From Reyranella massiliensis 521 (lineage in GTDB: Bacteria > Pseudomonadota > Alphaproteobacteria > Reyranellales > Reyranellaceae), in contig NZ_HE997181.1 of the NCBI RefSeq assembly GCF_000312425.1, forward strand, positions 1,393,486-1,457,485: a stretch of 64,000 nt of DNA, written 5' to 3'. A model generated the notes under the pieces. It did not search any database. It saw nothing but the letters and a program-made list of their open reading frames with translations, and had not been told where the DNA came from. Position numbers and translations under genes: made by a program. Each line of letters starts with the position of its first letter. Within the stretch, counting starts at the first letter, position 1. Of the stretch, positions 19,431-50,038 are shown one piece after another.

Positions 19431-20942
19431 CTACGCTTCGTTGCGGCCGAGCCGCATGTCGAGGTCGAACGGATAGAGCGGCCGCTTGACCCGTGTGTAC
19501 TTGAACAGCTTGAGGTCGGACGCCGTGCAGCCGTCACCGTCGCACATGACGATATGCTTGGCGATCGGCTCGAAGCCTGCACGGAAATGCTGGCGCGACT
19601 TAATCAGCACGTATTTCTTGCGTCGCGGATCGATGCCGCAGTGGGTAAATACGCCGAGGTCGTAGGGCTCCGCACGCTTCTCGGAGACCACGATCTGCAT
19701 CTTGCCGGTGTCGAGCACGGCCGTGCGGCCCATGCGCACCGTGGTGCCGGTCGCCATCGGGCCCGTGACCACGAACTGGCCATCGGTGATCGCCTTCACC
19801 TTGCCGGTGACCTTGAGCGGCTTGCCCTTCAGGCCCATGGCCGGCATGTCGATCTTGCCGCCGAGCTCCAGCGTCACCTCGGCGCCGACGCCGGCCTTGA
19901 TCATCTGCTCGACACAGGCGGGGTCGCAGATCGGGCCGGCGCATGCATCTTCGAGGTCCTGCTTCATGGCTTCCTCGATGACGCTCATCACGTCCTGCGT
20001 GCCGCCCGAGGCGGTGTTGTCGCCGTGGTCGGCCATAACGACGGGGCCGCCGTCATAAGACTTGGCGCGGGCCACCTGGACGGAGAGCGGCTCGGGATGG
20101 AACAGGAAGCCTTCGCGCTTCTCCCAGGCGGTATCGAGGATCTTGTTCAGCAGGATCTCGCCTTCGGCGGTGCGCTTGTCGCAGACGATCACCGAGGAGA
20201 GGGCGAGATGGGGGATGTCGGCCTGCGGGAAGCCGCCGAACACCGAGGCGTTCAACACCTGGCCGGTGTCCTCGGCCTGGTTGGCCATGCCCATCAAGGT
20301 CTTCATCGGCTCGCGCGACGGCGTATGGACCAGCGAGCTGCTCATGATCGGCCGGTTGCCCCAGACCATCTTCGGCTCGACTTCGCCCGCCAGCATCCGG
20401 ATCAGGGTCCGGCCGGCGCGCTGCGCCGTGTCGCCCATGTCGATGTGTGGATAGGTGCGATAGCCGGTGATGATGCTGGCGCCGTTGATCATGGCGTCGG
20501 TCATCTGCGTATGGAAATCGAGCGCGACGGCGATCGGCACGTCGGGGGCGATCTTGCGGATGCGGTTCAGCAGCTCGCCTTCGCCGTCGTCGTAATGTTC
20601 GGCGACCATGGCGCCGTGCAGGGCGAGCAGGACCGCATCGCAGCCCTTCTTCACCTCGTCGACGATTGCCGTCGTCATCTGCTCGTAGGCAGCCTTGGTG
20701 ACCAGACCCGAGGGATTGGCCGACGCCGCCATGGGAACGGTGAATTCGGCGCCCGCCCTGCGGGCGACGTCGATGAAGCCGCCCAGGGAGGTGTTGGTGC
20801 CCTCGGCTTCCTTGATGGCCATCGGGCCGCTCAGGGACCCGGCGCGGGCGAAGGACTCTATGGGTGTGGGTAGGGGAGAGAAGGTGTTCGTTTCATGCAT
20901 CATCATTGCAACGACAAATTTCTTAGCCAACTCGTCCTCCAT
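19431..20942 (-). CDS. M81 family metallopeptidase (MlrC-like)
   Basis: A 503-residue M81 family protein. MlrC, the named member, is a zinc peptidase that finishes microcystin breakdown in sphingomonads; most members are of unknown substrate. Recognisable parts are VAMMMHETNTFSP (likely zinc ligand region), NPSGLVTKAAYE, ALHGAMVAEHYDDGEGELL, VALDFHTQMTD and YPHIDMGDTAQRA in the N-terminal half. VVMADHGDNTASGGTQD opens the C-terminal half. There is no signal peptide. It lies just upstream of the D-aminoacylase gene. A strong T-rich intergenic region with the candidate sRNA precedes it. Confidence 0.88.
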   Translation of the reverse strand: MEDELAKKFVVAMMMHETNTFSPLPTPIESFARAGSLSGPMAIKEAEGTNTSLGGFIDVARRAGAEFTVPMAASANPSGLVTKAAYEQMTTAIVDEVKKGCDAVLLALHGAMVAEHYDDGEGELLNRIRKIAPDVPIAVALDFHTQMTDAMINGASIITGYRTYPHIDMGDTAQRAGRTLIRMLAGEVEPKMVWGNRPIMSSSLVHTPSREPMKTLMGMANQAEDTGQVLNASVFGGFPQADIPHLALSSVIVCDKRTAEGEILLNKILDTAWEKREGFLFHPEPLSVQVARAKSYDGGPVVMADHGDNTASGGTQDVMSVIEEAMKQDLEDACAGPICDPACVEQMIKAGVGAEVTLELGGKIDMPAMGLKGKPLKVTGKVKAITDGQFVVTGPMATGTTVRMGRTAVLDTGKMQIVVSEKRAEPYDLGVFTHCGIDPRRKKYVLIKSRQHFRAGFEPIAKHIVMCDGDGCTASDLKLFKYTRVKRPLYPFDLDMRLGRNEA

Positions 20943-21114
20943 CCAGGCTTCAAGCCTTTGAATACCCTACAAAAATGCACAGGCCCGATTCTGCAAAAGC
21001 AATGCACCCAGTGCAAAGCTGTATCCCATGATTATTGTGCGTTGCAAAAAAGACACACCCAAATACGCACATCAACAGACGTTAAACATGTGAATTCAGG
21101 GCTCTTTTTTGTTC

Positions 21115-21143
21115 TTGAAATCCCTTCGCAGGTGCACCATTCT
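21115..21143 (+). promoter_or_regulatory. Candidate promoter of the small RNA
   Basis: TTGAAA (21115-21120), a 17-base spacer and CATTCT (21138-21143) precede the structured transcript, placing its start in the G run at 21146-21150. The surrounding 20943-21120 sequence is AT-rich and shows no plausible gene. Confidence 0.45.
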
Positions 21144-21148
21144 TAGGG

Positions 21149-21249
21149 GGCAGCAAACGCCGCCTCGGCGGCCTCTTTGTTTGCTGTATGCCCGTCTTGG
21201 GCGTTTCCTCCCTAAACTCGGGCCGTGCTTGTCACGGCCCCTTTTTTTT
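21149..21249 (+). ncRNA. Candidate trans-acting small RNA, alpha-r8/MmgR (suhB)-like
   Basis: About 100 bases of highly structured sequence in the only gene-free stretch over 300 bases (20943-21262). In order: a long 5' hairpin (CAGCAAAC 21151-21158 pairing with GTTTGCTG 21179-21186, enclosing GCCGC-CTCG-GCGGC); a small GCCC/GGGC stem; an unpaired TTTCCTCCCT at 21204-21213; and a perfect Rho-independent terminator with a T-run. The pyrimidine-rich loop, complementary to Shine-Dalgarno sequences, directly before the terminator matches my recollection of the alpha-r8/MmgR sRNAs of Alphaproteobacteria. Those are Hfq-linked riboregulators; in Sinorhizobium MmgR limits polyhydroxybutyrate. Covariance search was not possible. 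Confidence 0.65.
21220..21249 (+). terminator. Rho-independent terminator of the small RNA
   Basis: GGGCCGTG, loop CTTGT, CACGGCCC, then C and at least seven T (21242-21248). No protein gene ends upstream on this strand, which is why a non-coding transcript is inferred. Confidence 0.85.
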
Positions 21250-21262
21250 GCCCAGTGCCTGA

Positions 21263-22162
21263 TTACTCGGCGGCGAGCCGGTGAGGCAGCAATATCTCGA
21301 CGGACTGACTGCCCATCTCTTGCAAAAACCCGGTGATCAGCTTGGTGAACACGCCGATCGTGGGCAGTCGTTCGTGGCGTGCTTCATCCATATAGAGCGC
21401 GCGATTGATCTCGATCTGCAGTGCGTGGCGCGACAGTGAAGGGCGGCCGTAGCACTGGGTCGTGAAGCCGCCGGCATAGGGCTGGTTGCGCAGAACACGC
21501 AGGCCGCGCGCGCGAAACCACGACTCGGCGCACGCAACGAGATCCGGCGCACAAGACTCGCCGTGATTGTCGCCCAGCACGATGTCGACGCGGCTGTCGC
21601 GGTCCCGTGTACCGAAATTGGAGGCCGAGGAGGGCATGGAGTGGGCATCGACCAGCAACGCGCCGCCGAAGGTGCTGTAGGTCCGTTCAAGCAGTATCGA
21701 AAGCGCCGTGTGATAGGGGCGCCAGCAGGTTTCGAGCCGCTCCTCGATCGTCTCCGACGGCACGCGCCCGCGATAGATCGCTTCGCCGCTGGCGGCCACG
21801 CGCGGGATCATGCCGAGACCTGCAGCCACGCGCGTCGTGCGATGGTTGAGCGCCCGCGGCAACGGGCCGTCGAACATGCCGGGGTCGAGCTCATAGGGCT
21901 CACGATTGGCATCGACGTAGGAGCGAGGGAAACGCGCCGCCAGGAACGGCATCCCGAGGGCAGGGGCTGCTCCGAACAAGTCGTCGACGAAGGCATCCTC
22001 GGCCCGGCGCAAGGCGGCGAGCGGCACGGCGGCCTGATCGAGGAAGGCGGGGGGGTAGAACGATCCGCTGTGCGGCGACGCCACCACGACCGGGACCGCC
22101 TGCTGTGCCGGAAGGCGGCAATCCAGGGCCTCGTGATCGGGCAGAGCCGGGAGATTGTTCAT
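21263..22162 (-). CDS. N-formylglutamate amidohydrolase family protein
   Basis: A 299-residue FGase-family zinc hydrolase; HutG2 of this family removes formate from N-formyl-L-glutamate at the end of one histidine-degradation route. Motifs include VVASPHSGSFYPP, FPRSYVDANREPYELDP, YHTALSILLERTYS, LLVDAHSMPSSAS, DIVLGDNHGESC, PYAGGFTTQCYG and ALQIEINRALYMDE. These supply the His, Glu and Asp ligands. No other hut gene is near, so use on another N-formyl or N-acyl substrate is possible. It is transcribed toward the small-RNA locus and starts about 125 bases from tRNA-Val. Confidence 0.88.
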   Translation of the reverse strand: MNNLPALPDHEALDCRLPAQQAVPVVVASPHSGSFYPPAFLDQAAVPLAALRRAEDAFVDDLFGAAPALGMPFLAARFPRSYVDANREPYELDPGMFDGPLPRALNHRTTRVAAGLGMIPRVAASGEAIYRGRVPSETIEERLETCWRPYHTALSILLERTYSTFGGALLVDAHSMPSSASNFGTRDRDSRVDIVLGDNHGESCAPDLVACAESWFRARGLRVLRNQPYAGGFTTQCYGRPSLSRHALQIEINRALYMDEARHERLPTIGVFTKLITGFLQEMGSQSVEILLPHRLAAE

Positions 22163-22288: not shown

Positions 22289-22363
22289 GGGCGCGTAGCT
22301 CAGCGGTAGAGCACTGTCTTGACATGGCAGTGGCCACAGGTTCGATCCCTGTCGCGCCCACCA
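22289..22363 (+). tRNA. tRNA-Val (anticodon GAC)
   Basis: A complete cloverleaf. Acceptor GGGCGCG pairs with CGCGCCC. The D arm is GCTC/GAGC with loop AGCGGTA. The anticodon stem CTGTC/GGCAG has loop TTGACAT giving GAC. The T arm is ACAGG-TTCGATC-CCTGT, with an encoded CCA end. It reads valine codons GUC/GUU. Its 3' half from the anticodon loop onward is the left attachment repeat of the prophage, and the gene stays functional after integration. Confidence 0.96.
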
Positions 22364-22368
22364 TCGCC
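22318..22368. repeat. attL: 51-bp prophage attachment repeat in tRNA-Val
   Basis: The 51 bases from the tRNA-Val anticodon loop to five bases past CCA are identical at 33616-33666. The integrase remnant ends at the edge of this repeat, as usual for tRNA-integrated phages. Confidence 0.92.
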
Positions 22369-23314
22369 TAACCCTTACGGGGCAGCATTTTACGCTTCTT
22401 GGTCGGTTTGCGCACGACCTTCTTGGGCGGCTGTTTTTGCGCGTGATTTGCGCGTACCCGCCCATGTGCCAGCGTCTCCGCGCCGGCCTTCAGGTCGCTC
22501 ATCATGTGCTTGCCGTAGACTTTCTGCAGCGTTCGCATGCTGGTTGCCATCATCCCCGACACGATCCATGCAGAGACTATAGGCAGCGCGAGTGATGCTG
22601 CGGTGTGCTTCAGGACATGCGGCGTGACGTGCGGCAACTTCTTCTCGCCGGCCTTCGTCAGCATTTTGTTTGCCGCCTCGACCGTATTGCGGAACGCGCG
22701 CTTGACGCCCTTGATCGGTCGGGTGGTGCGTCGCTCGCCGTCGCTATTGCGAGCGTTGTGATACTGGATGACGTTGTCGCCGGTCTGTCGCTTACGCAGC
22801 CGCCGTAGGCTCGCCACGAGACGAGTTGGAATGCCGGTTGCCGCGCGACGCTTGCGCGAGTGATTGACCCCGGGCAGTCGGAAATCGACGGTGCCCGCTT
22901 TGAGGTCGACCCTATCCCAGGTGAGCTGCAGAATCGCGCCACGCCGCGCGCCGGTATAGACGGCAAAGCGGATGAACAGGGCGATGTGATCGTACCCTAG
23001 AGCGCGCGCCCCACGGAGCAGGGCGGCGATCTGTGGGCGGGTGAGGGCATGGGGGCGCGGGTCTGGCTCCTCAAGCGCGGGCACAAATGGAGCGGTCGCA
23101 AGTTCTCCGTTGCGCACGGCGCGCTTCAGGGCTGCCCGCAGACGTACCAGGTGCTGATTGATCGTGCCGGGGGATTTCCCTTCGGCAACGCATTGGGCAA
23201 CGTATCGCGCGTGGCTGCGGGCATTCACGAGAGACACCGTGCCGGACCCGTAAAATTCCTTCAGGTGCTTGATGGCTATGTTTGCCCGTTCGGCGCTCGG
23301 CAAGTGCTTGGCAT
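22368..23314 (-). pseudogene. int: Phage tyrosine recombinase (integrase), N-terminally truncated
   Basis: About 315 residues of a tyrosine recombinase. The core-binding domain begins abruptly at LPSAERANIAIKHLKEFYG. The catalytic domain contains the first Arg in YTGARRGAILQLTWD, the beta-hairpin Lys region HSRKRRA, HVTPHVLKHTAASLAL (Lys where many have the second Arg, as in several alphaproteobacterial phage integrases) and the nucleophile Tyr in TLQKVYGKHM. A lysine-rich tail follows. There is no good start in this frame: upstream codons overlap the next gene out of frame, and only a TTG at 23305 or a GTG at 23495 exists. A deletion probably joined it to the gene upstream, so it may be inactive. 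Confidence 0.75.
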
Positions 23315-23803
23315 GACCCGGAAGGTCCAGAACGTGTTGGCAGAGGCTGTAACCTTGCCGGCCGAGGAAACGACACGCGCCACTTCCTTGGCCGGCGCCG
23401 GGGTTTCCGGGGCTTCGTCGATCTGGAGTGCCTTGTTGGCTTCGGCTTCCTCGCGTTCGCGGCGGCGCTGCTCCTCCAGCTTGGCCCGCTGCCACGCATT
23501 AATGGCGGCCACGGCTGTGTCAGCGGCGTCCTGGACGGGCTTGGCGAGCTTCTGGAAAAACCCGTCGACCGTCTTGGCGTCCTTGTTGATCTGCTCCTTT
23601 TCGCCCTTGCGAGCCTTCTCGATCATCGAGAGGACGCCCTTCAGGGACTTGGCACGCTCGCTATAGTCGGCCAGATCATCGTCCACCATGATGGGCGACA
23701 GGGCTTCCAGGGCGAGCACGTCGGCCGCTTGCTGGGCCAGCGAGGCGTGATCGATATCCAGCCGTTCGGCCAGGGGCGGCTGGTTGTGACCGATGTTGCT
23801 CAT
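23276..23803 (-). CDS. Phage protein of unknown function, probably C-terminally truncated
   Basis: A 175-residue protein beginning SNIGHNQPPLAERLD, a start seen in many temperate phages of Alphaproteobacteria next to recombination genes. A long charged coiled coil (residues 90-135, RRREREEAEANK) is followed by GKVTASANTFWTFRV. In homologues that segment is followed by a further 40-50 residues. Here the frame changes character to MPSTCRAPNGQT and stops inside the integrase frame, as expected of a deletion joint. It overlaps the ERF gene by four bases (ATGA). Function is unknown. Confidence 0.65.
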   Translation of the reverse strand: MSNIGHNQPPLAERLDIDHASLAQQAADVLALEALSPIMVDDDLADYSERAKSLKGVLSMIEKARKGEKEQINKDAKTVDGFFQKLAKPVQDAADTAVAAINAWQRAKLEEQRRREREEAEANKALQIDEAPETPAPAKEVARVVSSAGKVTASANTFWTFRVMPSTCRAPNGQT

Positions 23804-49963: not shown

Positions 49964-50038
49964 GAATTTTCCTCCCTGCGTCGCGCCTTGTTTCCGGCGT
50001 CGATCGCCCGAGCATGTTGCCAACTCGGAGGGAGGTGT

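Follow-up and report, generated by a model that had tools for sequence, protein, structure and literature searches.

The locus and the anatomy of the RNA

The window, i.e., the whole stretch of 64,000 nucleotides of Reyranella massiliensis 521 DNA that was analysed, contains an intergenic gap at 20943–21262 between a gene encoding an M81/MlrC-family metallopeptidase and a gene encoding an N-formylglutamate amidohydrolase-family protein (FGase), both confirmed by Pfam (Table 1). The FGase protein scores under the NCBIfam equivalog cut-off for N-formylglutamate deformylase, and its assignment, taken from Pfam, is at the family level. The gap has a G+C content of 50% (44% upstream of the RNA) compared to 64.6% for the window, and no supported ORF was found at 20943–21262. 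Beyond the FGase gene a tRNA gene (22289–22360, plus strand) is directly followed by a phage-type integrase gene (22368–23495, minus strand); together they probably form the left boundary of an integrated element that extends further downstream.

Table 1. Genes and sequence features of the αr8 locus (window coordinates).
Feature	Position	Strand	Evidence and remarks
M81/MlrC-family metallopeptidase gene	19431–20942	minus	PF07364, E 8.9e-89; PF07171, E 4.4e-59; divergent neighbour
−35-like hexamer TTGAAA	21115–21120	+	kept as CTTGNA/T in Reyranella copies
Operator-like element TTCGCAGGTGCACCATT	21125–21141	+	conserved; between −35 and −10
−10-like hexamer CATTCT	21138–21143	+	17-nt spacer after −35; kept as CATTNT in Reyranella copies
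Predicted αr8-family sRNA transcript, ~100 nt	21150–21249	+	promoter spacing, start of the 5′ hairpin, T-run of the terminator
5′ hairpin	21151–21186	+	outer stem 21151–21158/21179–21186; inner stem 21159–21163/21168–21172
Second hairpin AUGCCC-GUCUU-GGGCGU	21188–21204	+	in the Rfam core
Single-stranded 10-mer UUUCCUCCCU (window: TTTCCTCCCT), putative anti-Shine-Dalgarno seed	21204–21213	+	centroid and consensus folds
Intrinsic terminator	21220–21249	+	8-bp stem 21220–21240; T8 21242–21249
N-formylglutamate amidohydrolase-family gene (FGase)	21263–22162	minus	PF05013, E 3.8e-71; convergent neighbour

The 5′ end of the RNA presumably lies near 21150, give or take a few nucleotides. The 104-nt RNA at 21146–21249 folds with −50.7 kcal/mol (z −5.07), and none of 200 shuffled sequences was as stable. 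With exception of its first U the 10-mer UUUCCUCCCU is unpaired in the centroid fold as well as in the consensus fold, and it is invariant in all 25 aligned sequences. Four terminator-like sites were found in the stretch versus 0.5 expected, the long one being the αr8 terminator; it serves the plus strand, since the T-run is absent on the minus side. A second TTTCCTCCCT is located in the window at 49968–49977 (plus strand) with no Rfam match around it and is probably a chance occurrence.

The alignment of 25 copies allowed the structure to be examined comparatively. All 674 of 674 cells at paired positions contain standard pairs, including 100% of the cells of the 5′ hairpin, where compensatory changes occur at four of the 13 pairs. 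Six pairs changed on both sides: in the 5′ hairpin three belong to the inner and one to the outer stem, and the remaining two are terminator pairs. The inner-stem pairs CG/UA and AU/GC (13:12 each) alternate across many species. None of 500 shuffles matched the observed percentage paired, the two-sided changes or the covariation score, controls which are inflated by the relatedness of the sequences; the count of further pair types was lower in the real alignment than in the shuffles. Slid versions of the structure pair 31–49% of the cells. Neither the second hairpin nor the 10-mer varies, so covariation is uninformative on the former.

The first position of the Rfam model of the family (RF00519, see below) falls within the 5′ hairpin, in its 3′ arm. 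Among 33 αr8 loci from the whole class, the mean complementarity of this arm to its upstream sequence was 19.7 within a locus, compared to 14.3 when loci were mismatched (p ~1e-13), which identifies the 5′ hairpin as a general αr8 feature. A hairpin specific for the genus was accordingly rejected, comparable hairpins being present in other members of the class; the Reyranella hairpin is enlarged by the inner stem. Given the position of its start, the family model should be extended.

A preliminary description of this DNA, made from the sequence letters, had proposed a promoter-like pair, a 5′ hairpin, an exposed sequence and a perfect terminator in a gene-free, AT-rich gap next to M81 and formylglutamate hydrolase genes, and had expected an RNA of 75–105 nt ending near 21249. 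All these elements are present in Table 1, and the expected 3′ end and length fit the anatomy.

Family membership and genomic address

A covariance-model search with RF00519 (suhB/mmgR, “Makes More Granules Regulator RNA”), suggested in the preliminary description, returned a match at 21183–21255 on the plus strand over model positions 1–77 with 60.2 bits (E 6.6e-10 for the 64-kb window; gathering threshold 41 bits). It was the only sRNA match above threshold at the locus in the Rfam search. R1, a custom 99-position model built on the complete RNA, scored 125.6 bits at the locus; at E ≤ 1e-4 it matched 143 of the 385 genomes from the class. The αr8 RNA is present in 23 of 24 sampled congeners and also in a member of another family of the same order. 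Its core was detected in 56 stretches of named Reyranella and Enhydrobacter aerosaccus records and MAGs, including Reyranella soli NBRC 108950, R. aquatilis KCTC 52223, E. aerosaccus ATCC 27094 and many Reyranella MAGs. The one-contig genome of 5.79 Mb contains a second, weaker RF00519 copy (C1:3597262–3597353, minus strand; 41.5 bits; L096:3263–3354) about 20 nt before a gene of unknown family. An endolysin-like gene lies ~0.8–1.7 kb away, and the copy is therefore probably part of a prophage. No tandem RF00519 copy was found in the genome search.

In nearly all Reyranella records the M81 gene is located ~240 nt upstream of the core in divergent orientation and the FGase gene ~100 nt downstream in convergent orientation. 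Class-wide, 18 of 29 other αr8 loci have FGase as their convergent neighbour on the downstream side; M81 was found beside none of these 29, and the M81 synteny is confined to Reyranella. The αr8 RNAs occur in all Alphaproteobacteria except the Rickettsiales (PMC12559287), and most species, according to a passage of the same paper that cites its ref. 42, carry a single copy adjoining the N-formylglutamate amidohydrolase gene. The position beside FGase is thus the documented αr8 address and is shared by 18 of 29 loci, which makes the Reyranella locus canonical.

From the covariance model, the covariation and the conserved location it follows that the RNA is a member of the αr8/RF00519 family (MmgR/SisA-type), as had been proposed. 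The locus is the ancestral address of the family beside the FGase gene, and its αr8 member is genuine and ordinary. Two claims of the preliminary description have to be withdrawn: a location next to FGase would not extend the family, as this is, in the passage of PMC12559287 concerned and in agreement with the 18 of 29 loci, already the usual place of the single αr8 copy, and the RNA is not special to the Rhizobiales.

Promoter region and predicted targets

The arrangement TTGNA-N17-CATTNT is conserved across the Reyranella copies; a scan with a generic sigma-70 consensus scored no promoters at the locus. A σ54 promoter was dropped as a candidate on account of the missing −25 G, the GG/GC spacing being judged by eye. 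Control by LsrB/VtlR (LysR) was rejected as well, because the consensus of these regulators (GCAT-N3-TG-N3-T, located upstream of −35 in PabcR1) does not fit the Reyranella element.

The pattern TTCGCNNNNGCACCATT, which describes the operator-like element, has one occurrence in the own genome; 30 of the 31 Reyranella genomes contain it, with nearly every copy at the αr8 sRNA. Extra matches in relatives had no sRNA downstream in the few cases inspected, and with a single genomic copy a regulon sharing the element was rejected. The element resembles a PhaR box, with the GC pairs four bases apart (GC-N4-GC) instead of three, whereas the phasin promoters of the same genome carry the standard three-base form. 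The genome also encodes PhaR (TIGR01848) and three phasins. In Sinorhizobium meliloti, mmgR is repressed by PhaR (AniA), whose box YGCRNYGCR occupies the corresponding promoter region (PMC12542648, Table 3). This box was found within 85 nt upstream of 25 of 29 class-wide αr8 RNAs (including L004, L005, L011 and L225–L249), often twice, versus 2.9 expected (maximum 7) from 200 dinucleotide shuffles; relatedness among the loci and a partial overlap of the box with the hairpin's 5′ arm mean that the excess overstates independence.

Candidate targets were sought by the sequence pattern AGGGAGGAA-N3-10-ATG only. In the own genome AGGGAGGAA precedes the ATG by 3–10 nt in 18 genes, compared to one for the reversed pattern. 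Periplasmic solute-binding proteins account for 14 of the 18 (eight TctC, three SBP_bac_5, two Peripla_BP_6 and one NMT1-like), versus 5 of 16 for the control Shine-Dalgarno sequence AAGGAGGAA (Fisher p 0.014, a comparison of one motif in a small sample); a Shine-Dalgarno preference of solute-binding-protein genes could be the source of part of this signal. The other four genes encode an AMP-binding acyl-CoA ligase, a 3-hydroxyisobutyrate dehydrogenase, an acetoacetyl-CoA reductase (TIGR01829) and an FAA hydrolase; phasin genes are not among the AGGGAGGAA matches of the own genome. For six of the own candidates, counterparts with a seed match were found in other Reyranella (57–97% identity), and solute-binding proteins make up only 14 of 29 fetched matches in the other Reyranella genomes.

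These data bear on the question whether the RNA chiefly regulates PHB, a storage polymer, as MmgR does in S. meliloti, with PhaR repressing it through the operator-like element, or whether its main targets are transporters. The genome encodes PhaR and phasins, the element sits where PhaR binds the mmgR promoter (PMC12542648), the frequency of YGCRNYGCR in αr8 promoters points in the same direction, and the acetoacetyl-CoA reductase is among the seed-matched genes. Against it stand the spacing of the GC pairs, which differs from that in the phasin promoters of the same genome, the restriction of the element to the αr8 promoter, and the lack of phasin genes among the seed matches. We consider a primary role in PHB metabolism possible, though on balance unlikely.

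Relation to known sRNAs and proposed function

The Reyranella RNA shares with MmgR, the type member from S. meliloti, the match to the whole RF00519 model, UUUCCUCCCU after a short hairpin, a Rho-independent terminator, a stand-alone intergenic gene and a putative repressor-type element between −35 and −10. It is ~20–25 nt longer (~100 nt versus 77–78 nt), the extra length coming from the inner stem of the 5′ hairpin; its putative operator is GC-N4-GC instead of PhaR's GC-N3-GC, and its host does not belong to the rhizobia. SisA, the αr8 RNA of Caulobacter crescentus, has the same 10-mer, the FGase linkage and membrane transport as target class (predicted here for Reyranella), and Hfq is present in both cases. 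Caulobacter possesses four copies and the sponge CrfA, compared to one canonical and one prophage-like copy in Reyranella, and outer-membrane TonB receptors are prominent in Caulobacter, and periplasmic binding proteins among the Reyranella matches.

AbcR1/AbcR2 (alpha-r15) resemble the RNA in anti-Shine-Dalgarno control of transporters (predicted here), in three stem-loops and in length (114–120 nt compared to ~100 nt), and a CU-rich anti-Shine-Dalgarno sequence is common to both. That the locus encodes such a three-hairpin, Hfq-binding ABC-transporter regulator is nevertheless very unlikely: RF00519 is the best Rfam match and the only one for an sRNA over threshold, the neighbours are M81 and FGase and not an lsrB/vtlR-type LysR gene, the tandem arrangement common for alpha-r15 genes is absent, and there is one conserved CU-rich motif instead of two, the CCUCUUU of the 5′ hairpin varying between species. 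SorY (RF02651) gives a weak match of 21.3 bits ending at the terminator (gathering score 111), a similarity which rests mainly on the GC-rich terminator.

The end of the FGase gene is only 13 nt away from the RNA, which might suggest a terminator or leader, or the 3′-UTR of a neighbouring gene, rather than a free RNA. This reading is highly improbable, as the neighbouring genes are on the opposite strand, the T-run follows the stem on the plus strand only, conservation extends jointly over promoter, whole RNA and structure, and a sister family (L091) keeps the αr8 RNA without M81 and FGase as neighbours. A short protein has a negligible probability: ORFs of 75 aa (21109–21336, plus strand) and 83 aa (20895–21146, plus strand) can be listed mechanically, but single-base indels occur within the region across species and the changes preserve base pairs, not codons.

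Computation establishes the family membership, anatomy, conservation, covariation and synteny of the RNA as well as the presence of the hfq and PhaR genes in the genome. We regard it as highly probable (about 0.88) that the locus is an αr8 gene at the ancestral FGase position which encodes a trans-acting sRNA of ~100 nt acting on Shine-Dalgarno sequences. A sigma-70-type promoter, possibly controlled by a repressor between −35 and −10, would produce the RNA from near 21150 to the terminator at 21249. The 10-mer of the family pairs with Shine-Dalgarno regions with the help of Hfq (PMC12559287; PMC7143759), and Caulobacter SisA, which uses this 10-mer together with Hfq, has a target set enriched in membrane transporters (PMC12559287). 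In Reyranella the unpaired UUUCCUCCCU would, together with Hfq, most likely pair with purine-rich Shine-Dalgarno sequences AGGGAGGAAA, resulting in a block of translation and faster decay of the mRNA. Predicted target mRNAs are those for solute-binding proteins of tripartite-tricarboxylate and ABC importers and, in addition, some of carbon storage, e.g., acetoacetyl-CoA reductase. Judging from the seed matches, the RNA would repress importers as well as part of PHB synthesis and would thereby fit nutrient uptake and storage to the carbon state.

The αr8 core is also found on mobile elements, including many phages or proviruses of Alphaproteobacteria. A scan of viral contigs (including L100–L179) detected at least 120 stretches with the core, and 19 of 20 tested viral contigs, among the matches listed, passed the RF00519 threshold. 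Examples are L172:7403–7479, where the αr8-like RNA immediately precedes the gene of a minor tail protein, L107:5118–5184 on a contig with terminase and portal genes, and L158:3840–3916 on a contig with a terminase gene. The first of these contigs also carries a phage diversity-generating-retroelement RNA (RF03022; L172:3208–3340, plus strand; 69.7 bits). Among the matches listed, the viral copies keep the second hairpin and UUUCCUCCCU and differ in flanks, terminators and 5′ stems. Core-like sequences were moreover present in two Bradyrhizobium phages, in one phage recorded from Microcystis and in 54 plasmid records (Methylobacterium, Azospirillum, Bradyrhizobium, Sinorhizobium and others; H8–H22). 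A non-exhaustive literature search found no paper linking MmgR and prophages in this way.

To our knowledge, PhaR control of an αr8 promoter has so far been known from S. meliloti. As a tentative idea, which we hold to be rather doubtful at present, αr8 might be an ancestral carbon-state switch: its promoter control by PhaR would be old and class-wide and respaced in Reyranella, and the copies with the same seed that are widely carried by phages of Alphaproteobacteria would steer the translation of host transporters during infection.

As a standard member at a standard address, the Reyranella locus itself matters little. It does offer a clean comparative data set in the 25 aligned copies, and testable target lists for Reyranella, a genus for which no earlier sRNA work was found in the literature. 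If confirmed, PhaR-type operators in most αr8 promoters and the phage-borne αr8 RNAs would matter more than the locus.
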